Shown piece by piece: positions 19,881-32,348 of a stretch of DNA of 64,000 nucleotides. Made by a program: the position numbers and the translations under genes. The stretch is from Celeribacter sp. PS-C1 (GTDB taxonomy: Bacteria; Pseudomonadota; Alphaproteobacteria; Rhodobacterales; Rhodobacteraceae), in the NCBI RefSeq assembly GCF_019429625.1, contig NZ_JAHXRW010000004.1, positions 1-64,000 of the forward strand, read 5' to 3'. The notes under the pieces were generated by a model that saw only the letters and a list, made by a program, of their open reading frames with translations, was not told where the DNA came from and searched no databases. Position 1 is the first letter of the stretch. Each line of letters opens with the position of its first letter.

Positions 19881-19902
19881 AATAGTTGCTGTTTCAATTA
19901 TT
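19881..19902 (+). promoter_or_regulatory. MarR-type box upstream of NitT/TauT operon
   Basis: A 22-bp site beginning AATAGTTGCT and ending TTCAATTATT, with AATNNTTG-N6-CAANNATT symmetry. It sits inside a wider perfect 8-bp inverted repeat (AAAATAAT ... ATTATTTT, 19876-19904). It is 47 nt upstream of the GTG start of the ABC ATPase gene and about 155 nt upstream of the MarR start, and matches the amidase-promoter site. Confidence 0.6.
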
Positions 19903-19948
19903 TTACTTTCAGTTGATCTCAACACTAAGCGAGACCGGAGAATATCCC

Positions 19949-20731
19949 GTGGCACATGCTCTCGAAGCAATCTCAATCAGCAAGACTTACCAGTCCTCGG
20001 ATGGACCGAATACGGTTCTGCGTAACATGTCATTCCGTGCAGAGAAGGACGAGTTCTTTGCCTTCGTCGGGCCGTCGGGGTGTGGCAAGTCGACATTGTT
20101 CAACATCATCACCGGTCTTCTGGCCCCCGACACCGGCAGCATTGTTGTCGATGGGTCGGAAACGACCGGACGGGTCAGTGAAAAGATCGGATATGTGCTT
20201 CAGAAAGACCTCCTCTTTCCGTGGCGGACTGTCGAAGACAACATCATCCTCGGCCTCGAAATCAAAGGCGTCTCCAAGCGCGAAGCCCGCGCAATGGCCA
20301 GCGACATACTCAAAGATTACAAAATGAGCGGCTATGAGCGGAAATTGCCCGGTGAATTGTCTGGCGGCATGCGTCAGCGCGTTGCCCTTATGCGCACGAT
20401 GGTGACCGATCCTCAAATCATCCTCATCGACGAAAGCTACAAGGCTCTCGACTACCCTCTCAAAATCGAACTGGAGGGTGAGTTGCTCGACCGTGTGAAA
20501 GGTTCGGGCAAAACCGTGATCTTCATCACCCACGACATCGAAGAAGCCGTGACTCTTGCAGACCGTGTTTACGTGATGAAAGCACGACCTGGTGAAATCG
20601 TCGAGGAAATCAAGATCGATCTGGGAACCGATAGCCACAACATCCCGGAACGGCGCATGTCTCCGCATTTCAACGAATACTACACACGGATCTGGAAACG
20701 GATCGGCGGTGCCCACGCCGCTGTCGCCTGA
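19949..20731 (+). CDS. NitT/TauT-type ABC transporter ATP-binding protein
   Basis: A 260-residue ABC ATPase with Walker A GPSGCGKST at 41-49, signature LSGGMRQR at 137-144 and the H-loop in THDIEEA. The Walker B continuation reads IDESYKALD where most family members have DEPFGALD; the catalytic Glu is kept. The GTG at 19949 was chosen since GGAG lies 8 nt upstream. It starts a three-gene import operon (ATPase, permease, binding protein) for a nitrogen- or sulfur-bearing compound, probably an amide. Confidence 0.85.
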   Translation: MAHALEAISISKTYQSSDGPNTVLRNMSFRAEKDEFFAFVGPSGCGKSTLFNIITGLLAPDTGSIVVDGSETTGRVSEKIGYVLQKDLLFPWRTVEDNIILGLEIKGVSKREARAMASDILKDYKMSGYERKLPGELSGGMRQRVALMRTMVTDPQIILIDESYKALDYPLKIELEGELLDRVKGSGKTVIFITHDIEEAVTLADRVYVMKARPGEIVEEIKIDLGTDSHNIPERRMSPHFNEYYTRIWKRIGGAHAAVA

Positions 20732-20756
20732 GCCGAAAGCTGGAAAGACTCTCAAA

Positions 20757-21593
20757 ATGAGCACGCACACAGAAACCGCCCGCCAGGCGGCACGTCGCCC
20801 CCTCGCCAATCTCTTCCCGCTCACCTCCAATCCGATCGGACGCCGATATGTACTGATCGGCCTACAGGTCGCGATTACCGTTGCGCTACTCGCGACTTGG
20901 GAATTCGGGGCGCAGGCCGGCTGGATCAACCGCTTCCTCTTTGCCAGCCCGTCCATGGTTTGGGACGTTCTCGTCGACCGGGCTCTGTCGGGGGAATTGC
21001 TCGAAGATGTATGGACGACCTCTGTCGAAACACTCGTCGGCTACATTGTCGGCGCGATTGGCGGATCTTTGATTGGCCTCGGCCTATGGTATTCACGGTT
21101 TATTTCCGACCTCTCGGCACCGTTTATTGCAGCACTCGGGTCCATTCCGGTCCTCGCTGTGGCGCCTATGACGATCATCTGGTTCGGGACCGGCATCCTC
21201 GCCAAAGTCATGATTGTGGCCTTCTCCTGCATCGTCGTTTCGCTGACGACCTCCTACAAAGGCGCGATGCGTACGGACGAAGATCTGATCAACCTGATGC
21301 GGTCTTTTAACGCGAAACGGTCCGCGATCTTCCTGAAATTGGTGGTTCCCGCTGCGATGCCTTGGGTCTTCTCGGGTCTGAAGCTCTGTGTCGGCTTCTC
21401 CCTCGTGGGCGCAATTGTCGGCGAATACATCACCTCGCAGAGCGGTGTCGGTCACATGATCCTGCTCGGCTCCTCCAACTTCTCCATGAACATCGTCCTC
21501 GCCGGCATCGCGGTGGTGATGGTCATGATGCTTGTCTTCAACGCGCTGATCACTCTCCTCGAGCGCTTCATTCTATCTTGGGAAAGGAAATAA
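20757..21593 (+). CDS. NitT/TauT-type ABC transporter permease
   Basis: A 278-residue BPD-type inner-membrane permease with about six membrane segments. The EAA loop is visible around FNAKRSAIFLKLVVPAAMPWVFSG, and GSIPVLAVAPMTIIWFG is the family block preceding it. The ATG at 20757 follows the ATPase stop by 25 nt; the longer open frame upstream overlaps the ATPase gene. It forms the channel for the substrate delivered by the binding protein encoded next. Confidence 0.85.
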   Translation: MSTHTETARQAARRPLANLFPLTSNPIGRRYVLIGLQVAITVALLATWEFGAQAGWINRFLFASPSMVWDVLVDRALSGELLEDVWTTSVETLVGYIVGAIGGSLIGLGLWYSRFISDLSAPFIAALGSIPVLAVAPMTIIWFGTGILAKVMIVAFSCIVVSLTTSYKGAMRTDEDLINLMRSFNAKRSAIFLKLVVPAAMPWVFSGLKLCVGFSLVGAIVGEYITSQSGVGHMILLGSSNFSMNIVLAGIAVVMVMMLVFNALITLLERFILSWERK

Positions 21594-21595
21594 AC

Positions 21596-22603
21596 ATGAA
21601 CCGTAGAACCCTCCTCGCCTCTACCGCTGCCTTCGGTCTGACGCTCCTGCCAGTTGCAGGCTCCGCACAGGACATGACCGAAGTGACCATCAACCAAGCG
21701 TTCCAGTCGCTGCTGTACCTCCCGCTCTATGTGGCTCAGGAACAAGGTTTCTTTGCCGACGAAGGTCTCGAAGTGACGATCGAAACCGGTGGCGGTGGTG
21801 CGCAGAGCTGGGCTGCTGTGATCGGCGGGTCCGCACAGTTCTCCATTCAGGACCCGGTGTTCGTCCCGAAGTCTCGTGAAATGGGCGCCGACGGTGTTGT
21901 CGTTGCTGGTGTCCAGAACGCGCCGACCGTGTTCATCTTCGGTTCTGACGAAACCCCGCTTCAAGATGATCTGTCCCTGCTCTCCGGCAAGCGCGTGATC
22001 ACCTCCCCCGAGCCGGACACCACCTGGGCCTTCATGTCCTATCTGATCGAACAGGAAGGCCTCGAAGACGTGAACATCGTCAACGTGTCCATCGGCAACG
22101 AAATTCCTGCGGTTATGGCCGGTCGTGCCGACTACGCTCTCGCAGTGGACCCGCAAGTTGCTCAGGCCGAGCTCGATAACGGTCTCTCTTCGGTCTACTC
22201 CTTCTCGGCGAACAAGGACTGGTACCCCTACGCATTCTCCAGCCTCACCACGACCCAGAGCTACATCGACGAAAACCCGGAAGCTGCACAGGGTGTCGTG
22301 ACAGCCTTCGAACGAGCGTCCCGTTTCATCTACGCAGACTTCGACCGCACCGTTGAGATCGCGCAAGAGTACTTCCCGACCCTTTCCGAAGAAGTCGTCC
22401 GCACCTCCGTGCAACGAGAAATCGACGCGAAAGGTTACCCGGAAAACGTGCTCGTGTCCGAGAAAGCTTGGGAAAACAACATGAACATCTCCGTTTATGC
22501 CGGCACGCTGACCGAATACCCGTCAGATGCCACTTCCTACGCTGCAAACGTCAACGTCGAGCTCGCCACGAAAGCAGCCGAAGCCGCAGACGCACTCAAC
22601 TAA
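21596..22603 (+). CDS. NMT1/THI5-like ABC transporter substrate-binding protein
   Basis: A 335-residue periplasmic receptor with a signal peptide that begins MNRRTLLAS and ends near residue 24. INQAFQSLLYLPLYVAQEQGFFADEGLEV is the NMT1/SsuA/TauA-type opening, and GGGGAQSWAAVIGGSAQFSI contains the ligand-contact loop. GGAAAGGA precedes the ATG, 2 nt after the permease stop. Family members bind nitrate, sulfonates, pyrimidine precursors or related nitrogen compounds; the linked amidases favour an amide or ureide. Confidence 0.85.
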   Translation: MNRRTLLASTAAFGLTLLPVAGSAQDMTEVTINQAFQSLLYLPLYVAQEQGFFADEGLEVTIETGGGGAQSWAAVIGGSAQFSIQDPVFVPKSREMGADGVVVAGVQNAPTVFIFGSDETPLQDDLSLLSGKRVITSPEPDTTWAFMSYLIEQEGLEDVNIVNVSIGNEIPAVMAGRADYALAVDPQVAQAELDNGLSSVYSFSANKDWYPYAFSSLTTTQSYIDENPEAAQGVVTAFERASRFIYADFDRTVEIAQEYFPTLSEEVVRTSVQREIDAKGYPENVLVSEKAWENNMNISVYAGTLTEYPSDATSYAANVNVELATKAAEAADALN

Positions 22604-22622
22604 GGCGTCCGCCAAAATGATC

Positions 22623-22650
22623 GGCGTCGGACAGTTTCTTGTCCGACGCC
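22623..22650 (+). other. Strong hairpin after binding-protein gene
   Basis: GGCGTCGGACA and TGTCCGACGCC form a perfect 11-bp stem with a 6-nt loop, 20 nt after the binding-protein stop and 64 nt before the next small gene. No T-run follows. Its position suggests a stabiliser of the binding-protein message or partial read-through control. Confidence 0.55.
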
Positions 22651-22713
22651 ACACCCCCCAAACCCCGTCCTACCAGACGGGTAATAATTGCCAAAATTTC
22701 CGGAAAGATCCCG

Positions 22714-22962
22714 ATGCCGCTCCCTCTTGAAACCCGCCTCGCCATGATTGGCCTTTCCCACGATGAGATGACCTCCGATCTGCGAACGGTTGTCTCAGAC
22801 TGGGCTACACGCTGCGAGGCACTGACGGCGTATGCAAAGGCGCATCTTGATCCCTACGAAACGCCGTTGAGCGCACGGGTTTCGCCATTTGGCCCTGTGC
22901 GCCGGGAAAGCGGTCGAGGTTTCACACTCGAACAGGACACCCGCGCCGGAGAGGCAAAATGA
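22714..22962 (+). CDS. Small GatC/AtzG-like protein coupled to amidase
   Basis: An 82-residue protein whose last four bases (ATGA) overlap the start of the second amidase gene, implying translational coupling. A GGAAAG ribosome site lies 7 nt before the ATG. The layout, an N-terminal helix (LETRLAMIGLSHDEM) followed by LDPYETPLSARVSPFG, resembles GatC and AtzG subunits that wrap around amidase-signature partners. No database comparison was possible, so the family link is a pattern-level inference. Confidence 0.5.
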   Translation: MPLPLETRLAMIGLSHDEMTSDLRTVVSDWATRCEALTAYAKAHLDPYETPLSARVSPFGPVRRESGRGFTLEQDTRAGEAK

Positions 22963-24296
22963 AAGACATGACTGAAACTGACCTCGCACAGATGGATATG
23001 ACAGAGGCCGGACGTGCGGTCCGCGCTGGCCGTACAACTTTCGAAGAACTCACATGCGCCTGTCTGAAGAGGGCGGAAGAAACTTCGGAGCTGAATGCAT
23101 GGGAACGCCTGTGCACCACGGAAGCCCTCGATGCGGCGCGGGCTCAAGATACGTTGCTCGCAGCCGGATATGACCTCGGCCCACTTCAGGGCATGCCGAT
23201 CGGCCTCAAGTCCAATATCGCTGTTGCGGGGTTCCCTCATACCGCAGGATCCCAAATCCTCGCCGAACACATCGCGACGCGCGATGCGGATGTAACGCAC
23301 CGCTTGAAACGTGCCGGAGCCGTTATTCTTGGTCAAACCAACATGCACGAGTTCGCGTGGGGCGGGACGACGGACAACCCACATTACGGACAAGGCCGCA
23401 ACGCCCGGGACCCGAGCCGTATCCCTGCCGGCTCGTCGGGCGGTTCCGGTGCAGCTGTGGCGGCCGGGTCTGCCATGGCTGCACTTGGGACGGATACGGG
23501 GGGATCGGTGCGTCTGCCCGCAGCCCTCAATGGAATCTATGGATTGCGGCCCGGAGTCGGAAAGCTGCCCGTAGATGGTATTTTCCCGCTCGCGTTTTCC
23601 CTTGATACGGTTGGTCCAATGACGCGATCGGCGCGGGACGCGGCTCTCCTCTATCGAGCGATGTCTGGCGAAACCGACCCCTCGCTTGAGGCGCGACGCG
23701 CCACTTTACCGCGACGCCTCGGACTGCCCGTTGAATATGTCAGGGCGCGGCTCGAAGCAGGTGTGGAAGCTGCATTCGACGGATGGCTGAAAAGCCAGCG
23801 CGCGCGCGGCATAGAAATCGTCGAAATTGATCTGCCGAACATGGATCTTGCGGTAGATGCTTTGGTCATCGCCGATGCAGCAGAGCCGACCACCCTGCAT
23901 GATGCTTGGCTCGATCGCTGCCCTGAGAACTACGGCGATGATGTCCGGGCACAACTTCTCGCCGGACGCAGTATTCGGGCGACCGACTATCTGCACGCTC
24001 AAAGATTCCGAGCCGCCTTTCGTCGTCGTGTTCTTGGCATTCTTGATGACGTGGACATGATCGTGATGCCGACGCTTCCGTTTGTTGCACCAGAGGTCGG
24101 GCAGACAGAAGTTATCCTTTCAGGCCATCGCGAAAGTGCGCTGACTGCAAATATGCGCTTCACGGCTCTCGCGAGCTGCGCAGCTCTGCCTGCGCTCAGT
24201 TTGCCAGCAGAGACTGGCGACGGGCTGCCAGTCGGAATTCAACTGATCGGACGGGACGGCGCAGAGAGCGACCTTCTCTCCTTCGCCGCGAGCTGA
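22959..24296 (+). CDS. Amidase (amidase-signature family; AtzE/AtzF-like)
   Basis: A 445-residue amidase-signature enzyme with Lys84 (GLKSN, where LKDN is more common), Ser159 (GSSGGSG) and Ser183 (GTDTGGSVR) as the catalytic triad. Its length and coupling to a small upstream protein resemble AtzE/AtzG, which deaminates carboxybiuret, though other amides or ureides are possible. It differs from the amidase at 16565-18052 and is not a recent duplicate. It follows the NitT/TauT transporter genes and precedes a DMT exporter. Confidence 0.8.
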   Translation: MKDMTETDLAQMDMTEAGRAVRAGRTTFEELTCACLKRAEETSELNAWERLCTTEALDAARAQDTLLAAGYDLGPLQGMPIGLKSNIAVAGFPHTAGSQILAEHIATRDADVTHRLKRAGAVILGQTNMHEFAWGGTTDNPHYGQGRNARDPSRIPAGSSGGSGAAVAAGSAMAALGTDTGGSVRLPAALNGIYGLRPGVGKLPVDGIFPLAFSLDTVGPMTRSARDAALLYRAMSGETDPSLEARRATLPRRLGLPVEYVRARLEAGVEAAFDGWLKSQRARGIEIVEIDLPNMDLAVDALVIADAAEPTTLHDAWLDRCPENYGDDVRAQLLAGRSIRATDYLHAQRFRAAFRRRVLGILDDVDMIVMPTLPFVAPEVGQTEVILSGHRESALTANMRFTALASCAALPALSLPAETGDGLPVGIQLIGRDGAESDLLSFAAS

Positions 24297-24300
24297 TCTC

Positions 24301-25194
24301 ATGATGAACTCCGATGTCCACCCGCGAGAAATGCGAGGTGGCTTGCCGATCCGCGCACTCGCGCTATTGATCGGTGTTTGTGCGATATGGGCCGGGAATG
24401 CGGTCTTTCTCCGGTATTCGATCGGCATCCGATCCCTGCCCCCAATCCATGTGGCGGCGGGCCGCTTTCTGATTGTTGCGGTCTTGCTGTCACCGCTTTT
24501 GCTGCGACCAATTACAAATCTCCCGCGCATTCTTGTCGCGGGCCTCTTAATGGGGGCGTGCCATTTCGGCTTCCTGATGGTCGGCTACGGGCAAATCACA
24601 GCCGTCGCCTCCGCCGTTCTCCTCCAGATCGGTGTCCCTTTGACGGCACTGCTCTCCATGGCTCTCGGCGCAGAACGTCTCTCGGTTCGCCGGCTCCTGC
24701 TCGTCGTCGGTTCAACCGTTGCGATCATCTTTGCGCTCGGTGGCCCGGGACAACTTGATCTGATCGGGGCAAGTTGCATCATCCTGGCCGCGGCGACGCT
24801 TTCTCTCGGCTCAGTCATAATGGCGAGAAGCGGATCTGTCGGTGCCCTTACCATCCAGGCGTGGACGTCCATTGGATCCGCCGTCGTTCTGTCGGCATTG
24901 GCTCCACTTCTTGAACCGGAAGGTCTCGGCGAGCTCACCGCACAACCTTGGCTCGCGGCCATCAGTATCGTCGCACCGGCCCTTATCGTGACTGTTGGCG
25001 CACATACGGTTTATTATCATCTCCTTAAAAACCATCCGCCCAGTCTGGTCTCAGCCGTCACGGTGCTCTTTCCTTTACTCACGATTGTCTTCGGGGTGGT
25101 GTTTCTCTCCGAGACACTCAGAGCGCAATTCGTCATTGGGACAACGATCGCCGTTCTGATCCTCAGCCTCCTCGTGATAGACCGCCGCCGCTGA
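24301..25194 (+). CDS. DMT/EamA-family transporter
   Basis: A 297-residue protein with about ten membrane helices in two EamA repeats. The first contains CAIWAGNAVFLRYSIG and PPIHVAAGRFLIVA; the second ends VVFLSETLRAQFVIGTTIAV, the classical last-helix motif. Such carriers export amino acids or other metabolites, or import them. It is 4 nt after the amidase stop, hence last in the transporter-amidase operon, and might export the product. Confidence 0.8.
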   Translation: MMNSDVHPREMRGGLPIRALALLIGVCAIWAGNAVFLRYSIGIRSLPPIHVAAGRFLIVAVLLSPLLLRPITNLPRILVAGLLMGACHFGFLMVGYGQITAVASAVLLQIGVPLTALLSMALGAERLSVRRLLLVVGSTVAIIFALGGPGQLDLIGASCIILAAATLSLGSVIMARSGSVGALTIQAWTSIGSAVVLSALAPLLEPEGLGELTAQPWLAAISIVAPALIVTVGAHTVYYHLLKNHPPSLVSAVTVLFPLLTIVFGVVFLSETLRAQFVIGTTIAVLILSLLVIDRRR

Positions 25195-25400: not shown

Positions 25401-26261
25401 TTATACGCCGGCGTAAACCGGGAACATGCTAGCGTCGCCGTAGTCCTTGATTTTCTCCATGGACTTGAGGGCGTCCATGTCCTCGGCGGAGATTTCAAAA
25501 TCGACGGTGGCGTTGCTTTCCATGTGGGCAGGCGTTGCGGTTTTCGGCAGCGGGAGCAGGTCCAGTTGCAGGCAGTAGCGGATCGCCAGCTGCGGCAGGC
25601 TCACACCGTATTTGTCGGCCATGGCCTGCACTTCGGTGTTTTTCATCAGCTCGCCGTGGCCCATTGGAGAATAGGCTTCCACGAGGATGTTCTTGCTCTG
25701 ACAGTAGTCGATCAGTTCGAAGGGCGTGTTGGTGATGTGGGCGAGGATCTGGTTGACCATCGGCGCCACAGTGCCGTTGTCGATGAGATTGTCGAGGTCG
25801 GCTTTCTCGTGGTTGGACACGCCGATGGCGCGGATTTTGCCCGCTTTATAGAACTCTTCGAGCGCGGTCCAGGCGGCGAGGTTGCCTTCGAAATAGCGAT
25901 CTTCGCCACCGAATTTGTCCCAAGGCGTCGGGCTGTGAATGATCATCAGGTCGATGTAGTCGACGCCCAGAAGATCGAGCGAGCCCTGGATCGCGGCTTT
26001 CGCGCCTTCATAGTCCTTGATGCCTGCGTCCAGTTTGGTTTGCAGGAACAGCTCTTCGCGCGCCACGCCGCAGTCACGCAAGCCTTCGCCCACACCGCGT
26101 TCGTTCCCATAGGCCTGTGCGGTGTCGATGTGGCGGTAGCCGAGTTTGACGGCGGCTTTCACGGATTCGGCGACTTTGTCGTCGTCAATCATCCAGGTGC
26201 CAAGGCCGAGTTTCGGGACTTCGACGCCATTGGAGAGGGTGAATGTCTCTTGAAGGATCAT
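25401..26261 (-). CDS. Aldo/keto reductase (DkgA/YeaE-like 2,5-diketo-gluconate reductase type)
   Basis: A 286-residue cytosolic NADPH-dependent aldo/keto reductase. The catalytic tetrad is complete: Asp46 and Tyr51 (HIDTAQAYGNE), Lys76 (LQTKL) and His109 (MIIHSP). NADPH-binding LPLPKTATPAHMESN is near 245. AGGAAG precedes the ATG at 26261; a longer upstream frame lacks a ribosome site. The family reduces aldehydes, methylglyoxal and keto-sugars. It has its own promoter region with one of the 25-bp CAYTCATGA sites. Confidence 0.85.
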   Translation of the reverse strand: MILQETFTLSNGVEVPKLGLGTWMIDDDKVAESVKAAVKLGYRHIDTAQAYGNERGVGEGLRDCGVAREELFLQTKLDAGIKDYEGAKAAIQGSLDLLGVDYIDLMIIHSPTPWDKFGGEDRYFEGNLAAWTALEEFYKAGKIRAIGVSNHEKADLDNLIDNGTVAPMVNQILAHITNTPFELIDYCQSKNILVEAYSPMGHGELMKNTEVQAMADKYGVSLPQLAIRYCLQLDLLPLPKTATPAHMESNATVDFEISAEDMDALKSMEKIKDYGDASMFPVYAGV

Positions 26262-26416
26262 GAGATCTTCCTTTCTTTGCGTTTGGCCGTTTGCCGAACT
26301 GGGCAAACGGGGCTGTTTCCATCTGTCCCAGACGGGACATCGAACAGCCGGTGTCATCTTGATGTGCTCAATCTAGGCCAAAGCGTGAGCTATTATAATC
26401 CGGGCAAAATAGATGC

Positions 26417-26441
26417 CACTCATGACTCAAAATCATGAGTG
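26417..26441. promoter_or_regulatory. 25-bp inverted repeat, candidate LysR operator (AKR promoter)
   Basis: CACTCATGA-N7-TCATGAGTG is a perfect 9-bp inverted repeat with a 7-bp centre. The same architecture recurs at 31018-31042 and, with a degenerate right half, at 28417-28441. It lies in the 204-bp spacer upstream of the aldo/keto reductase gene and just past the cupin stop. Confidence 0.65.
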
Positions 26442-26465
26442 ACTCCTTTTAGCGCAAATCTAAGG

Positions 26466-26861
26466 TCAGCCGTTGTAATCTTCGTCCGCGACCTTCTCCA
26501 TCCAGGTCACGGCAGAGCCATCGACGGTCTCTTGGATCGCATAGTGGCTCATGGCATTTTCGGGTGCTGCCCCGTGCCAGTGTTTCTCGCCCGCCGGGAA
26601 CCAGACAACATCGCCAGCGCTCACCTCTTCGACCGGACCACCTTCGCGCTGAACACGACCACGTCCAAAAGTGATGATGATGGTCTGACCTGCGGGGTGG
26701 GTGTGCCATGCGGTGCGCGCGCCCGGCTCGAAGGTCACATGCGAACCACCGACGCGGCCCGGCTCTTCGGCTTGGAACATCGGATCGACACGCACGGTGC
26801 CGGTGAACCAATCCTCGGGACCAGCCATGGAGGGGATGCTGCCGGAACGGATGATTTTCAT
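26466..26861 (-). CDS. Cupin-domain protein, cytosolic (mandelonitrile-lyase-like cupin)
   Basis: A 131-residue single-domain cupin without signal peptide. The metal motifs are WHTHPAGQ (His-X-His, about 53-60) and KHWHGA (about 93-98). Proteins of this subgroup are small Mn/Fe cupins often encoded beside carboxymuconolactone-decarboxylase-like proteins and reductases. It is closely paralogous to the exported cupin at 30478-30936, with the shared C-terminal pattern [14 protein letters not shown]. It is last of a three-gene unit with the reductase and exported CMD protein. Confidence 0.8.
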
Positions 26862-26888
26862 GGGGATACTCCTTTCAGAAACGCGGGC

Positions 26889-27527
26889 TCAGCCGCGCAA
26901 TTTGTCAAAACGATAGGTCAGAGCCGGGCCGCCGGGCTGGACATAGGCCAGTTCCACGGTCGCCATGGCGAAGGGTTCGATGAACCTCGCGTTGCGCATG
27001 CCGCCACAGTCCAACGCCTCAAAACCGACATCGCGGATCAGCCCGAACGCGATTTCCTTGGCGCCCGCGTCATCACCATAGGTCATGACCTGCGGTGCAG
27101 GCCCCTGCCCTTTGCGGGCAAAGACCGGATAGAAACTTTCCGAGGGGTTGGTGTTAAAACATGACACCCAACGCGCCTCGGGACGCAGTTTTGCCAATTC
27201 CTCGGCACCAGACGAAGTCGTGCCGACGACCAGCGCTGTGTCACTGTCGTTGAGCGGCAAGGAACAGTTGAGCACCACCTTGCCCGCCAGATCCCCCGCC
27301 TGCTCCAAAACATCGGCGCGGCGCGACCAATGCACCGCCAAAAGCACCGCATCGGCGCCAGAGACGGCCTCCGCCACAGTGCCCGCAAAGGCGCCGACCT
27401 CGCTTGCAAGCCGGTCGAGCTTGGCACGGCTGCGGGCATAGGAAAAGGTCACGTCATGCCCCGCCTCGGCCCAGATGCGGCCGAGTTTGCCGCCCATGAG
27501 ACCCGATCCCAGAATGCCGATTTTCAT
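26889..27527 (-). CDS. NAD(P)-binding reductase (F420-oxidoreductase-like)
   Basis: A 212-residue Rossmann protein beginning MKIGILGSGLMGGKLG, the dinucleotide motif of the NADP/F420 oxidoreductase-like family (NPD). SYARSRAKLDRLA after the second strand fits NADP recognition, and VLLAVHWSR is the third-strand region. It has only the short NPD architecture without an additional catalytic domain. It lies 27 nt after the CMD gene and 27 nt before the cupin gene. The substrate is unknown. Confidence 0.7.
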   Translation of the reverse strand: MKIGILGSGLMGGKLGRIWAEAGHDVTFSYARSRAKLDRLASEVGAFAGTVAEAVSGADAVLLAVHWSRRADVLEQAGDLAGKVVLNCSLPLNDSDTALVVGTTSSGAEELAKLRPEARWVSCFNTNPSESFYPVFARKGQGPAPQVMTYGDDAGAKEIAFGLIRDVGFEALDCGGMRNARFIEPFAMATVELAYVQPGGPALTYRFDKLRG

Positions 27528-27554
27528 GCCAAGCTCTCCTTTCAGCGCCTCAGT

Positions 27555-28340
27555 TTACTCTGCGCGGTTCTCAAACACCTCTTTCGCGACCGGCATGGCG
27601 GAGAAGACCTTCGGCCAGCCCGCATAGAAGGCCAGATGCGACAGCATGGCGCCGGCTTCCTCTTGGGTCAAACCATTGTCCATGGCGCGGTTGAGGTGGA
27701 ATGTCATCTGTTCCGGCTGACCGGCGGCGATGAGGGCGGCGACGGTGACGAGGCTGCGGTCACGCGGTGCGAGGTCCGGACGGAGCCAGAGATCGCGGAA
27801 CAGCACGTCGCGGGTGTTGTCCACCACACCGATGCTGACATCGCTATAAAGCCCGCTGACAAGCTCCTCGCGCGCATCCTCGGCCTCTTGGTTCAGCGGC
27901 AGGAATTCAACCTCTGCGCCGGGAAGACTATCAGGCGTGATGCCACGGGCCTCAAACACGGGGGCTGCGGCTTCGGCGGCGGCGGTGGCGTTGCCAAGAC
28001 CGGTGTAGAAGGCGAGATGGGTGATGGTCTCGGAGAGTTCCGCAGGCGTTACACCGGCGTCCAAGGCCAGCGTCACATAGCTGTCGAGGTTTTCGGTCTC
28101 ATGACGGGTCATGAGGGCTGCAAAGGTTACGAGCGCGCGGTCGCGCACGGACATGGCCTCGCTCTCCCACTCGGAACCGAGGATCGTCTCGCTGGTGTAG
28201 GCCTCAAGCGCCGGAGCGACTTGGGCAAGCGACGACGGCACGGTGTCGCGCACGTCCTGCGCGAGAGCGGCACTGGTCATAAGGGCAAAGGCGGAGGCGG
28301 CGATCGGGGTCTTTTTCAGGGACTTCTTCGGGAACGTCAT
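27555..28340 (-). CDS. Exported double-domain carboxymuconolactone-decarboxylase-family protein
   Basis: A 261-residue protein with a Sec signal peptide (cleavage near ALA-QD, residue 27) and two CMD-like helical domains, around 60-115 and 185-255. Repeated elements are RDRALVTFAALM / RDRSLVTVAALI and THLAFYTGLGNA / SHLAFYAGWPKV. No CxxC is present, so it is not an AhpD-type peroxidase. AGGAG supports the ATG. An exported CMD protein is uncommon, and it heads an operon preceded by a variant of the 25-bp site. Confidence 0.8.
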   Translation of the reverse strand: MTFPKKSLKKTPIAASAFALMTSAALAQDVRDTVPSSLAQVAPALEAYTSETILGSEWESEAMSVRDRALVTFAALMTRHETENLDSYVTLALDAGVTPAELSETITHLAFYTGLGNATAAAEAAAPVFEARGITPDSLPGAEVEFLPLNQEAEDAREELVSGLYSDVSIGVVDNTRDVLFRDLWLRPDLAPRDRSLVTVAALIAAGQPEQMTFHLNRAMDNGLTQEEAGAMLSHLAFYAGWPKVFSAMPVAKEVFENRAE

Positions 28341-28416
28341 GGGGAACTCCTGTTGTTTGTGTCTGCTGCACATGTGGGGCGGATTGCTCTGCGGTTAATG
28401 CCGCTGTGCATCACCC

Positions 28417-28441
28417 CACTCATGAGCCGCTTTCATCAATC
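28417..28441. promoter_or_regulatory. Variant 25-bp site upstream of CMD operon
   Basis: CACTCATGA-N7-TCATCAATC keeps the complete left arm and TCAT of the right arm of the inverted repeats at 26417 and 31018, with the same 7-bp centre. It lies in the spacer between the LysR stop and the CMD gene, 77 nt upstream of the CMD start. Confidence 0.5.
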
Positions 28442-28467
28442 CCCTAAACACCCCTCTGAGATCAGAT

Positions 28468-29394
28468 TTACGCCCGTTCCCTGAGCGCATCCAAGACCAC
28501 CGTGAAGGCCGAAGACGGCCTCTGGCGGCTTGGGTAATAGAGGTGAAACCCGGGGAAATACGGGCAATAGTCATCCAGACAGATACGTAGCGCCCCACGA
28601 TCAAGATGCGGCTGCGCCAGACGTTCGGGCACAAGCGCCAACCCATGCCCGTCAATCGCTGCCTGAAGCACCGGGTTGACGGTGTTGAAACAGGCTTGCC
28701 CCTTGACCTTGACGTTGATCTCCTGCCCGTCCTTGTCCTCGAATTCCCAGGCATAAAGCGCGCCATGGGTCGAGAGGCGCAGGTTGATGCAGCGGTGATC
28801 GACCAAATCTTGCGGCACATCAGGGGTGCCCAGCGCCTCGAAATACTCCGGCGCGCCGACACAGATCATCCGCTCGTCCGGCCCGATCCGCATCGCGATC
28901 ATGCCGTCACTGACCTGATCGCCGTAGCGCACACCGGCGTCACATTGCGACGCGGCCAAATCGGTGTAGCCGTAGTCCATGACGAACTCGACATTGACGG
29001 CGGGGAATTGCTTGAGCACTGGCGAGAGTTTGGGCCAGAGAATGCTCTCGATGGCGTATTCCACGGCAACGATCCGCACGGTGCCAGTGGGCGTATCCTG
29101 GGAATCGTTGAGCGCCTGCAACCGGCTTTCGATTTTCTCGAAACAGGGGTTGAGGGTGGCCAAAAGGTCCTCCCCTTCCAGCGTCGGCGCCACCGTGCGC
29201 GTCGTGCGGGTCAAAAGCCGCAATCCAAGGCGCTGCTCCAGCCCCTTAATGGTATGGCTCAGCGCCGATTGCGACACGTTGAGCCGAGCCGCAGCCTTGG
29301 TAAAGCTGCGCTCTTCGGCCACAGCGGCGAAGGCGATAAGGTCGTTGATATTCTCGCGTATCATGAGGGAAGCCGGAGGTTGGGAGGTGATCAT
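28468..29394 (-). CDS. LysR-family regulator of the redox cluster
   Basis: A 308-residue LysR-type regulator with the helix-turn-helix at about 15-60 (AAVAEERSFTKAAARLNVSQ, SALSHTIKGLEQRLG) and an effector domain from about 100 (TVRIVAVEYAIESI). It belongs by pattern to the YafC/DsdC-like group. The first ATG (29394) has a weak AGGGA; ATG 29364 (MIRENINDL) is also possible. It lies centrally in the cluster and is the best candidate to bind the three 25-bp sites. Inducer unknown. Confidence 0.85.
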   Translation of the reverse strand: MITSQPPASLMIRENINDLIAFAAVAEERSFTKAAARLNVSQSALSHTIKGLEQRLGLRLLTRTTRTVAPTLEGEDLLATLNPCFEKIESRLQALNDSQDTPTGTVRIVAVEYAIESILWPKLSPVLKQFPAVNVEFVMDYGYTDLAASQCDAGVRYGDQVSDGMIAMRIGPDERMICVGAPEYFEALGTPDVPQDLVDHRCINLRLSTHGALYAWEFEDKDGQEINVKVKGQACFNTVNPVLQAAIDGHGLALVPERLAQPHLDRGALRICLDDYCPYFPGFHLYYPSRQRPSSAFTVVLDALRERA

Positions 29395-29468
29395 CTAACG
29401 GGTTCCCTCATGATATATGTTTCAGACTCATAAAGTCGACGGATTATGCGAAGCTCATAACGGGATCG

Positions 29469-30488
29469 TTATGGCGCAAGTCTCACGAGCCGATCGTCCG
29501 AGGCACCATCGCGGCGGGGCGAACGGTTGGTGGTGATGGCATAGACTTCATCGCCCACAACCAGAACATCGCGAAGACGCTCCCCTGCGGCATAGGCCTC
29601 TGAAACGGCGCCCGTCTCAGAGATACCCAGCACAGCACCTGCCCGAAGTCCGGCGAGCAAAAGCCCCTGCCCTGAAGACGTCAGACCGGACGGCGCCCAG
29701 GTGCTTCGACCGGAGTGCGCGAAAGGCGCCTGCATCCCCTCACGGGTCTCATCGCCTTGGATCACGGGCCAGCCGTAATTGCCGCCCGCGACAATGCGAT
29801 TGACCTCGTCGTGACCGGATTGCCCGTGCTCTGCGGCAAACATCTGTCCCGACGCGTCCCAAGTGATCCCCTGCGGATTGCGATGCCCCAAAGAGTATAC
29901 TGGCGAACCTGGGAAAGGATTGTCCTCAGGCACCGCGCCCTCCGGCGTCAGGCGCAGGATCTTGCCCGCAAGGCTCTCCACATCCTGCGGCAGCGCGCGG
30001 TTTTCGGTCCAGCCGGTGGTGACATAGAGCATCCCGTCCGGCCCAAAGGCAACGCGCCCGCCGTTGTAAAGCGGATGGCCCGGGATATTGTCCAAGAGGA
30101 CGCGAGTCTCACGCCAAATCTCTCCGTCTCTCTCAACCTCGATCACCCGGTTATAGCGCTCTTCGGGCGTGCCAGCGTGATGATAGAGCACCGCGCGGCT
30201 GGTGTCGGCAAAATCGGGACGCAGCGCGAGGCCCAAAAGCCCCCCGCCACGATGATTCAGGATCGGCACAGAGGTCTCGACGGGCAGACGCGTAAAGCCC
30301 TCCCCGTCGAACAGGCCCAAGGTGCCCGCCTTCTCGGTCACATAGATCACATCGCCATGCGCCTCGATGTCCCAAGGGTAGTCGAGACCGTCCAAGACGG
30401 TCTCCCCCTGTGCCATCGCCACACCTGTCACGGCGCAGGTCAGCCCCAAGGCTACGCCCCGCAGCGCGGGTCTCAGCTTACCCACCAT
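29469..30488 (-). CDS. PQQ-type soluble aldose sugar dehydrogenase, exported
   Basis: A 339-residue six-bladed propeller protein of the glucose/sorbosone (GSDH) family, with a signal peptide ending near AMA-QG (residue 26). Diagnostic blocks are LNHRGGGLLGLALRPDF, NGGRVAFGPDGMLYVTTG, YSLGHRNPQGITWD and AEHGQSGHDEVNRI...GGNYGWP, which hold the Ca/PQQ and catalytic His/Arg positions. It would oxidise aldoses in the periplasm. Its start overlaps the upstream exported cupin by 11 nt, indicating coupling; ATG 30497 is an alternative start. Confidence 0.8.
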   Translation of the reverse strand: MVGKLRPALRGVALGLTCAVTGVAMAQGETVLDGLDYPWDIEAHGDVIYVTEKAGTLGLFDGEGFTRLPVETSVPILNHRGGGLLGLALRPDFADTSRAVLYHHAGTPEERYNRVIEVERDGEIWRETRVLLDNIPGHPLYNGGRVAFGPDGMLYVTTGWTENRALPQDVESLAGKILRLTPEGAVPEDNPFPGSPVYSLGHRNPQGITWDASGQMFAAEHGQSGHDEVNRIVAGGNYGWPVIQGDETREGMQAPFAHSGRSTWAPSGLTSSGQGLLLAGLRAGAVLGISETGAVSEAYAAGERLRDVLVVGDEVYAITTNRSPRRDGASDDRLVRLAP

Positions 30489-30936
30489 ATTCGGCATCCG
30501 TGACTTTCTCGCCCCACTCAACCGCGGAACCGTCGACGGTGGCCTGAATGGCGTAATGCGTGACCGAGGTGCTGTCAGTCGCACCATGCCAATGTTCGAC
30601 ACCCGGCGGACACCAGACCACGTCGCCCGCAGTGATGACCTGTTTCTCCTGCCCGCGTTCTTGGGTCCAGCCCGTCCCATGGGTGATCACCAACATCTGA
30701 CCTGCCGGATGCGTGTGCCACGCAGAGCGTGCGCCCGGAAGGAAGGTCACTTCGCCCGCACTCACGTCATTCATCTCAGGTGCAAAGACCGGCGCGACAT
30801 AGGCAGTGCCGGAAAAAGTCTCGTCACTGCCGATCTGACCGGGGCGTTCGTGATGGTGGGAGATTTCGACGGATTGTGCGAAGAGCGCGGCGGGGGCCAG
30901 TGCAAGCGTCAGGCCCAGTGCAAGTGTGCGTTTCAT
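30478..30936 (-). CDS. Exported cupin, paralogue of the cytosolic cupin
   Basis: A 152-residue cupin with a Sec signal peptide (MKRTLALGL..., cleavage near LFA-QS at residue 20). Metal motifs WHTHPAGQ and EHWHGA match those of the cytosolic cupin at 26466-26861, as does HYAIQATVDGSAVEWGEKV. AGAGGA precedes the ATG at 30936. It is transcribed with the PQQ dehydrogenase and divergent from the zinc alcohol dehydrogenase, and the shared promoter region holds a perfect copy of the 25-bp site. Confidence 0.8.
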   Translation of the reverse strand: MKRTLALGLTLALAPAALFAQSVEISHHHERPGQIGSDETFSGTAYVAPVFAPEMNDVSAGEVTFLPGARSAWHTHPAGQMLVITHGTGWTQERGQEKQVITAGDVVWCPPGVEHWHGATDSTSVTHYAIQATVDGSAVEWGEKVTDAEYGG

Positions 30937-31017
30937 AGGTGTTCCTCTCTCAAATGATGCATGTTGCAGACAACCTAGGTCGCGCACCCTTTCGGATCAT
31001 GGTCACTTCTCTCAACG

Positions 31018-31042
31018 CATTCATGATGAGCCCTCATGAATG
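31018..31042. promoter_or_regulatory. 25-bp inverted repeat, candidate LysR operator (cupin/ADH divergent promoter)
   Basis: CATTCATGA-N7-TCATGAATG, a perfect 9-bp inverted repeat with 7-bp centre, identical in geometry to the site at 26417. It is 82 nt upstream of the exported cupin and 95 nt upstream of the alcohol dehydrogenase start. Confidence 0.65.
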
Positions 31043-31136
31043 GCTTGCATGGAATAGCGATTATCCTCGCCGCGTTTTGCGCCATTTTATCGGCATACAT
31101 TTGACCCCTTCCCCAAAAGAGGATGCCAAAGAAACC

Positions 31137-32348
31137 ATGTGTGACGCGTGTAACACCTCCCCCGAACTTCTGACCCGTGACGGCGAGAGCCGCCGTGGCT
31201 TTCTGACAGCAGGGGCCGCCGCCGCTGTGGCCGCGCCGCTGGCCGCCACAGGCTTTGTCGGGGCCGCCCGTGCGCAAGACGCCCAAGACGCCAACGCTCT
31301 GGCCGAAAGCCAAGTGCAATCCTGGGCCGCCTTCGACACCGACGGCTCTTTTGCCCCCCACACCATCACCCGCCGCGCAGCCGGGCCGAAGGATGTGGTG
31401 GTCGAAATCATGTATAGCTCGATCTGTCACTCCGACATTCACACCTACAAAGGCGACTGGGGCCCTGCGGTTTACCCGCTTGTGCCGGGCCACGAGATGG
31501 TCGGCCGCGTTGTGGCCGTTGGTTCCGACGTGATCAAATTCCGCGAAGGCGACTTCGCCGGTGTCGGCACCATGGTGGACAGCTGTGGCGAATGCGCCAA
31601 CTGTCTCGCCGACCGTGAACAGAACTGCCTCAACGGCACAACCTTCACCTATGGCTCCGAGGACAAGATCTCCGGTGGTGTGACCTATGGCGGTTATTCC
31701 AAGAAGATCGTCGTCAAAGAAGAGTTCGCCCTGCGCATCCCGCCGGGGGTTGACCTTGCGGGGTTTGCGCCGCTCTTGTGTGCGGGCATCACCACCTTCT
31801 CTCCGATCAACCACTGGGATCTGAAACCGGGTCAGCGCTATGGCGTGATCGGCATGGGCGGTCTGGGCCACCTCGCCGTCAAACTCGCCGTCGCAAAAGG
31901 CGCCGAGGTTGTGGTCTTTACCACCTCCGAGGACAAAATCGCCGATGCCAAGGAATTCGGCGCCACAGAAGCCTATCTCTGGTCCGACGAAGAGGCACTC
32001 GCACAACAGGCGATGAGCTTTGATCTGATGATCTCCACCGTCCCCGTGGCCTACGACATGCAGTCCTTCCTCAACATGCTGAAACTCGACAAGACGCTGG
32101 TCAATGTTGGCGCACTGTTCGAGGTCCAAGGCGCTCAGGGCATGATGATGGCGTTCAACCGCCAGAGCCTTGCCGGCTCCATGACCGGTGGCATCGCGGA
32201 AACCCAAGCCGTGATCGACTTTGCCGCAGATCACGGCGTGGCCGCGACCTATGAGATGATCACCCCGGATCAGATCGGCGAGGCTTGCCAAAAGGTCGTC
32301 AACAAAGAGGCGCGCTACCGTTATGTCATCGACATGACTGCGGCCTGA
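31137..32348 (+). CDS. Zinc-dependent alcohol dehydrogenase with Tat signal (YahK/CAD-like)
   Basis: A 403-residue medium-chain dehydrogenase. A twin-arginine signal is present (SRRGFLTAG at 18-26, hydrophobic stretch, cleavage near ARA-QD at about 47). Catalytic zinc ligands are Cys97 (CHSDIH), His119/Glu120 (GHEMVG) and Cys215. Structural zinc cysteines are 150, 153, 156 and 164. The NADP Rossmann motif GMGGLG is at 239-244. Cinnamyl-alcohol/YahK-type enzymes reduce aldehydes and are normally cytosolic, so a Tat leader is odd. The frame is open upstream, but the Tat leader defines this ATG. Confidence 0.8.
   Translation: MCDACNTSPELLTRDGESRRGFLTAGAAAAVAAPLAATGFVGAARAQDAQDANALAESQVQSWAAFDTDGSFAPHTITRRAAGPKDVVVEIMYSSICHSDIHTYKGDWGPAVYPLVPGHEMVGRVVAVGSDVIKFREGDFAGVGTMVDSCGECANCLADREQNCLNGTTFTYGSEDKISGGVTYGGYSKKIVVKEEFALRIPPGVDLAGFAPLLCAGITTFSPINHWDLKPGQRYGVIGMGGLGHLAVKLAVAKGAEVVVFTTSEDKIADAKEFGATEAYLWSDEEALAQQAMSFDLMISTVPVAYDMQSFLNMLKLDKTLVNVGALFEVQGAQGMMMAFNRQSLAGSMTGGIAETQAVIDFAADHGVAATYEMITPDQIGEACQKVVNKEARYRYVIDMTAA

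Follow-up and report, generated by a model that had tools for sequence, protein, structure and literature searches.

Among activators of the LysR family, ThnR and PnpM/PnpR use a T-N11-A recognition site near position -65 together with a second site near -35 (PMC4834489, PMC5603801); for LysR activation sites in general, no conserved motif has been identified according to the introduction of one of these accounts (PMC5603801). In Bacillus subtilis, the AdhR/NmlR regulon (adhA, yraC, yraA), whose regulator contains a conserved cysteine, is induced by methylglyoxal or formaldehyde (PMC4776306). Here we describe three inverted repeats (dyads) of 25 bp in a cluster of oxidoreductase and cupin genes that surrounds a lysR gene of Celeribacter sp. 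PS-C1 (contig NZ_JAHXRW010000004.1, positions 1 to 64,000; this whole stretch of 64,000 nucleotides is referred to as the window). An operator family defining a new LysR regulon of textbook design is strongly supported by comparison of sequences. The dyads would be the recognition sites of the LysR protein encoded among them, which would activate the enzyme genes in response to a signal; we assign a probability of about 0.82 to this explanation as a whole.

Operator dyads and their association with the LysR gene

All three dyads have the same 9-7-9 geometry, and match the consensus CAYTCATGA-N7-TCATGARTG with 0, 2 and 0 mismatches, respectively. As already proposed in an earlier, sequence-only reading of the window, they fall in the promoter regions of an aldo/keto reductase (AKR) gene, of an operon for a carboxymuconolactone-decarboxylase (CMD) protein, a reductase and a cupin, and of a divergent pair encoding an exported cupin and an alcohol dehydrogenase (ADH):

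26417..26441, 0 mismatches: dyad 1, CACTCATGA-N7-TCATGAGTG, predicted LysR recognition site of the AKR gene
28417..28441, 2 mismatches: dyad 2, predicted LysR recognition site of the CMD-reductase-cupin operon
31018..31042, 0 mismatches: dyad 3, CATTCATGA-N7-TCATGAATG, predicted LysR recognition site common to the divergent cupin and ADH promoters

When up to 3 mismatches are allowed, the window contains three matches, all of them the dyads, compared with a mean of 0.08 and a maximum of 1 in 100 shuffles; the three window dyads are not due to chance. The inner ATGA-N7-TCAT of the dyads holds the T-N11-A box of the LysR family inside an interrupted palindrome, and their geometry is that of LysR-family operators. 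The genome of the same strain (3.87 Mb, 40 contigs) contains four sites with up to 2 mismatches, namely, the three window dyads and one on contig C40, and eight with up to 3, the chance expectation for GC contents of 0.65 to 0.50 being 0.06-0.28 and 1.0-4.2 sites, respectively, so that the remaining 3-mismatch sites are within chance and individually mean little. A random scatter of the motif, which would have spoken against the sequence-only reading, is seen neither in this genome nor in 198 genomes of the family.

Relatives of the cluster were represented by 56 loci carrying a relative of the LysR, obtained from a scan of species genomes and mostly belonging to Rhodobacterales judging by their titles; that all these loci share this LysR results from the search design and is no evidence on the identity of the binder. 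The site is present in 42 of the 56 loci with up to 2 mismatches and in 48 with up to 3, and the reversed pattern in none (up to 3 mismatches); when loci are grouped by genus or metagenome-assembled genome, the corresponding counts are 25 and 29 of 34. The motif is thus kept in most orthologous clusters, the comparison that the sequence-only reading had suggested. In 55 of the loci (L064 was left out of all counts by upstream region), sites with up to 2 mismatches precede the genes for CMD (27/44; 36/44 with up to 3 mismatches), AKR (12/24), the second, exported cupin (22/35), ADH (6/9), a cyclophilin-like protein (17/41), LysR (6/54) and the reductase (1/44); none precedes the first cupin (0/45) or a glucose/sorbosone-dehydrogenase-like protein (GSDH; 0/16). 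The reductase, first cupin and GSDH genes mostly sit behind a co-directional gene belonging to the set. None of 200 permuted palindromes occurs with up to 2 mismatches in the same upstream regions. Across 856,632 bases, TCATGA-N7-TCATGA has 40 exact copies, compared with 0-2 for each spacer of 0-6 and 8-20 nt, so spacer 7 alone is enriched; the seven spacer bases vary freely over 128 distinct sites, in which the match of the arms is by selection.

The site and the LysR ortholog occur together, genomes G213 and G215 being exceptions. The ortholog is patchily distributed in the family, with at least 80% identity in 5 of the 198 genomes, and the three genomes that have a site with at most 1 mismatch are all among these five (Fisher p = 8e-6); no such site was detected in the 193 genomes that lack an ortholog of at least 80% identity, four of which hold a relative of 54-56%, and the reversed pattern occurs at this threshold in 1 of the 198. 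Within the genus (20 genomes; up to 2 mismatches), all six genomes with an ortholog of at least 84% identity have 3-5 sites, and 11 of the 14 without one have none; G213 and G215 have one site each and G216 two. The sites of G216 are explained by remnants of the cluster: in this genome, only fragments of ADH, CMD and LysR are left, at two positions separated by about 2 Mb, and a dyad adjoins the fragments at both (L094 1-14001, L095 1-16001).

The dyads could instead be true operators of another regulator encoded elsewhere, with lysR a bystander or a mere target, as the single 2-mismatch sites of G213 and G215, the latter before an AKR gene, would suggest. We consider this improbable, given the co-occurrence of site and ortholog, with 0 of 193 in its absence, the T-N11-A spacing of the LysR family, and the finding that, in more distant LysR relatives, a version of the motif ends on the start codon of the regulator gene itself. 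In particular, a Pseudomonas LysR of 58% identity has a 1-mismatch dyad in this position (L057 7979-8003), the only site with up to 2 mismatches in that genome, and versions with 4 mismatches occupy the same place in L089, L090 and L112. Generic palindromes with a 7-nt spacer near ten relatives of 41-58% identity (L111-L117, L057, L060, L061) yielded no common motif; one of them, L117, has a perfect AATGATGA-N7-TCATCATT before its 41% relative. The Celeribacter genome itself encodes a 50% relative (L111 6510-7397; G000:C12:331515-332396), and no dyad with up to 4 mismatches is found in the surrounding 14 kb.

Promoter geometry and the mode of regulation

Alignment of the target promoters on the dyad reveals a second element, CATTAA or GATTAT, 16 nt beyond it:

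26393..26400, minus strand: GATTATAA, 16 nt past dyad 1, predicted activation site and -35 box of the AKR promoter
28393..28400, minus strand: CATTAACC, 16 nt past dyad 2, predicted activation site and -35 box of the CMD promoter
30994..31001, minus strand: CATGATCC, predicted activation site and -35 box of the exported-cupin promoter
31059..31066, plus strand: GATTATCC, predicted activation site and -35 box of the ADH promoter

Among 161 flanks of sites with up to 2 mismatches, AT(T/G)A begins at offset 18 in 65, the runner-up being offset 8, and in the 55 loci it does so in 59 of 87 flanks that face a regulon gene versus 2 of 68 others; by gene, the element is present before CMD in 25/27 cases, AKR in 10/12, ADH in 6/6 and the second cupin in 14/22. 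It overlaps the predicted -35, and bases are modestly biased at offsets 42-45, consistent with a -10 box after a gap of 17 nt; in the AKR promoter, the predicted -10 is TAGATT, 17 nt after TTATAA. With the predicted start near offset 54, the dyad center comes to about -65, and this -65/-35 layout, the usual placing for LysR activation, would fit the predicted promoters. The dyad at 31018 has the second element on both sides, so that it could drive both divergent promoters. A compound pattern of dyad plus element, searched in the own genome with up to 1 mismatch, recovers only the AKR, ADH, CMD and second-cupin promoters of the window; 2 mismatches add C40:119320, a match on C19 and a wrong-way reading of the AKR dyad, three in all, compared with 1 match for the reversed control.

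We infer that a LysR tetramer holds the 25-bp dyad, with T-N11-A inside ATGA-N7-TCAT and the center about 65 bp before the predicted start, and contacts the ATTA/ATGA element, which resembles a half-site and overlaps the -35 box. Upon an inducing signal, it would activate transcription of AKR, CMD-reductase-cupin, exported cupin-GSDH and ADH-cyclophilin-like. The lysR gene itself appears to have a different arrangement, in which the -35 and -10 flank an asymmetric, conserved site through which LysR would probably repress its own gene:

29413..29447, minus strand: ATAATCC-N7-TTATGA-N7-ACATATAT, candidate lysR autoregulatory element, third arm overlapping the predicted -10

The pattern shared by lysR upstream regions is ATAATC(A/C)-N7-TCATGA-N7-(R)CATATAT, and ATGA-N8-13-CATRTR is found in 45 of the 52 regions, counting that of the window, compared with a mean of 0.07 and a maximum of 1 in 200 shuffles, and has the N8 spacing in 43 of the 45; a consensus scan sets the lysR -10 a few bases further, on TATCAT. 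The half-site CCTCATGA that the sequence-only reading had pointed out upstream of lysR (29406-29413) exists and stands directly after this element, but is not itself the conserved element. Among 46 orthologous upstream regions with the -10-like CATRTR, the 8 bases after it read TCATGAGG in 3, namely, those of the window and of two further Celeribacter, and TCGTGAGG in another 8; a TCATGA start occurs in just 4 of the 46, and we rejected the half-site as a LysR self-site.

The position of the candidate site at lysR, over the predicted -10, is that of a repressor, and LysR might act on the dyads, too, mainly as a repressor released by an electrophile rather than as an activator; if the AKR -10 picked by the promoter scan is right, dyad 1 would also be closer to the start than is usual for activation. 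At the targets, the dyad center about 65 bp before the predicted start and the directional element at -35 occupy the LysR-activation position (PMC4834489, PMC5603801), and this makes general repression unlikely, if slightly less so than binding by another regulator.

A further possibility, that the dyads are RNA hairpins serving as terminators of upstream genes, draws on the location of dyads 1 and 2 after gene ends, on the stem of dyad 3, which forms in the predicted fold, and on dyad 1, which folds well (z -5.2) and scans as terminator-like on both strands. Dyad 2, by contrast, forms no hairpin (z -0.24), dyad 3 is not clearly better than shuffles (z -1.25; 20 of 200 as good) and lies between divergent genes, and distal copies precede AKR and other genes. 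Because of dyads 2 and 3, we rejected this explanation of the dyad family, which is very improbable; dyad 1 may double as a terminator.

Several observations weigh against LysR-dependent activation through the dyads. Eight of the 56 loci have no site with up to 3 mismatches (L031, L037, L050, L054, L060, L061, L062 and L064); three of these (L060, L061, L064) contain only distant LysR relatives of 29-49% identity, whereas the other five carry a LysR of 75-83%. Two of the five ortholog-bearing family genomes (G161, G039) have no site with at most 1 mismatch, and the sites of the ortholog-free G213 and G215 are to be added on the other side. The one in G215 (L096 7100-7124) is located between AKR-like and reductase-like genes, about 230 bp before the AKR gene (78%), and is unexplained by a simple model. 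Before the cyclophilin-like gene, the second element is poorly represented (4/19), and it is missing at the single reductase flank (0/1). None of the four predicted target promoters is picked up by a sigma-70 consensus scan, which for AKR chooses TATAAT at 26397-26392, inside the second element, as the -10; this would place dyad 1 nearer than -65. The lysR element is not present in 7 of the 52 upstream regions. Finally, kinship of the species means that the counts given here are not independent.

Extent of the regulon and the regulator protein

The genes of the cluster, assigned with Pfam and NCBIfam models, with signal-peptide-like and Tat-like N termini judged by eye, are the following:

25401..26261, minus strand: AKR, best model DkgA (184 bits, under its cut-off of 425)
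26466..26861, minus strand: first cupin, NCBIfam (R)-mandelonitrile lyase model (193 bits, cut-off 140)
26889..27527, minus strand: NADP-binding F420-oxidoreductase-like protein (the reductase)
27555..28340, minus strand: CMD protein, two matched stretches, signal-peptide-like N terminus
28468..29364, minus strand: LysR-type regulator, 298 aa from the conserved start M(I/L)REN
29469..30488, minus strand: GSDH, overlapping the end of the exported cupin gene
30478..30936, minus strand: second (exported) cupin, mandelonitrile lyase model (159 bits), signal-peptide-like N terminus
31137..32348, plus strand: zinc-type ADH, best model Ahr (269 bits, under its cut-off of 470), Tat-like N terminus RRGFLTAGAAAA
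32411..32863, plus strand: Cyclophil_like2-domain protein downstream of ADH, signal-peptide-like N terminus

An alternative lysR start, the ATG at 29394, would give 308 aa. A neighboring cluster at 19886-25194, judged by eye, combines ABC transporter genes and their substrate-binding protein with genes for an amidase-like protein and for a transporter of the EamA-like type.

In relatives, the sites move with the enzyme genes. The reductase gene has a site of its own where it is split from CMD (L021, 1 mismatch; L026 and L056, 3 mismatches), and the Cyclophil_like2 gene often has its own dyad site. Sites also occur on contigs without lysR: in front of AKR in L080, L083 and L093, of the second cupin plus an SDR-like gene in L081, of cupin/cyclophilin-like genes in L104, of a cyclophilin-like gene in L109 and of a DUF2255 gene in L108. 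In the Celeribacter genome, a pair of sites 58 bp apart, at 119259 (3 mismatches) and 119317 (2 mismatches) of C40 (C40:119259-119341, corresponding to L065 7260-7342), is located between divergent MFS and DUF2255-SDR genes; a dyad pair with the same spacing precedes the same genes in G210 (L091), and in Rhodobium orientis a DUF2255 gene (65% identity) is likewise preceded by a site. The MFS/DUF2255/SDR locus probably belongs to the regulon too. Sites with no known target gene number 20 in the 55 loci (up to 3 mismatches); among eight open reading frames scanned near such orphan sites in six loci, four are RibD_C (L012, L043, L052, L058) and four have no Pfam match. The regulon of three promoters proposed from the window alone is supported as far as these promoters are concerned, but its extent is wider, taking in MFS/DUF2255/SDR in this genome and, in relatives, genes for RibD_C and Cyclophil_like2 proteins and reductase genes split off from CMD.

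The regulator is a member of the LysR family, with an N-terminal HTH_1 domain (79.7 bits) and a LysR_substrate domain (105.9 bits), both above the Pfam cut-offs, and its AlphaFold2 model has the normal LysR fold (pLDDT 87.8). By fold, it is nearest to AphB and CrgA, with full-length matches; AphB (3szp, 3t1b) is the nearest solved structure by both sequence and fold. In an alignment of 56 ortholog rows, 55 of them distinct (L038 is identical to L082), C141, C168, C192 and C262 are invariant and C74 is kept in 55; in ten relatives of 46-58% identity (L060 and L061, whose matches start at residue 7, were left out), C74, C141 and C262 are absent and C168 is found in two. Cysteines account for 4 of the 23 clade-specific invariant positions (p = 8e-4, with kinship ignored). 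The presence of clade-specific invariant cysteines suggests, as a hypothesis, that LysR may act as a thiol sensor. The regulated oxidoreductases probably neutralize reactive chemicals, and the regulon would most likely answer reactive carbonyls or other electrophiles, perhaps sensed by these cysteines. More tentatively, and with odds that we regard as somewhat unfavorable, LysR might be a cysteine-based electrophile sensor unlike OxyR and AphB (C74, C141, C168 and C262, besides the common C192) that runs a two-compartment detoxification regulon, with cytoplasmic AKR, cupin and reductase and exported CMD, cupin, GSDH and dehydrogenase, via conserved activation sites, one dyad driving two divergent promoters.

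Comparison with described systems

No description of this regulon or operator was found among the matches listed in open-licence PubMed Central, which is weak evidence of absence. The cellular role of the oxidoreductases and mandelonitrile-lyase-type cupins is, to our knowledge, unclear, and the exact operators provide them with a testable regulon; the cysteines named above can be mutated, and the dyads allow distant targets to be sought.

In redox-responsive LysR proteins of the OxyR type, the Cys199/Cys208 pair is characteristic (PMC8063818). AphB has the same fold as the LysR described here, and its structures include a C227S variant, from Vibrio vulnificus, and a peroxide-treated form. Residue C227 of AphB has a redox role. 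The corresponding position is alanine 236 here (our own count on the alignment), so that no AphB-type cysteine is found there, whereas this clade has other invariant cysteines. Escherichia coli YafC belongs to the same broad LysR subgroup, and the YafC equivalog NF040888 is the best NCBIfam model for this LysR, although the score of 143.6 bits does not reach the cut-off of 470. The yafC gene adjoins dkgB in E. coli. The YqhC-yqhD-dkgA system of the same bacterium resembles the enzyme set described here in that an aldehyde-responsive regulator controls an aldehyde reductase and the DkgA aldo/keto reductase. YqhC is an AraC-family protein and YqhD a dehydrogenase of another type.

The likeness to AdhR/NmlR consists in a regulator that controls an alcohol dehydrogenase and a CMD-family protein; AdhR, however, is of the MerR family and the present regulator of the LysR family, which sets it outside AdhR/NmlR, and AKR, cupins and GSDH are not named for AdhR in the account of that regulon (PMC4776306).

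The closest parallels in regulatory design are ThnR and PnpM/PnpR, with which this regulon would share the layout of a T-N11-A palindrome at about -65 and a second site at about -35. ThnR, too, acts on a divergent promoter pair, and a conserved second region is common to its promoters PB, PH and PM (PMC4834489); ThnR has a separate primary site for each divergent promoter, whereas here one dyad is symmetrically flanked. Set against ThnR and PnpM/PnpR, the second element of this regulon looks like one half of the primary site, and its distance from that site is constant across species. The ThnR promoters share an activation-site motif among themselves (PMC4834489). The motif defined here has a fixed spacing, and because of this spacing the predicted activation geometry can be tested by shifting a single element.

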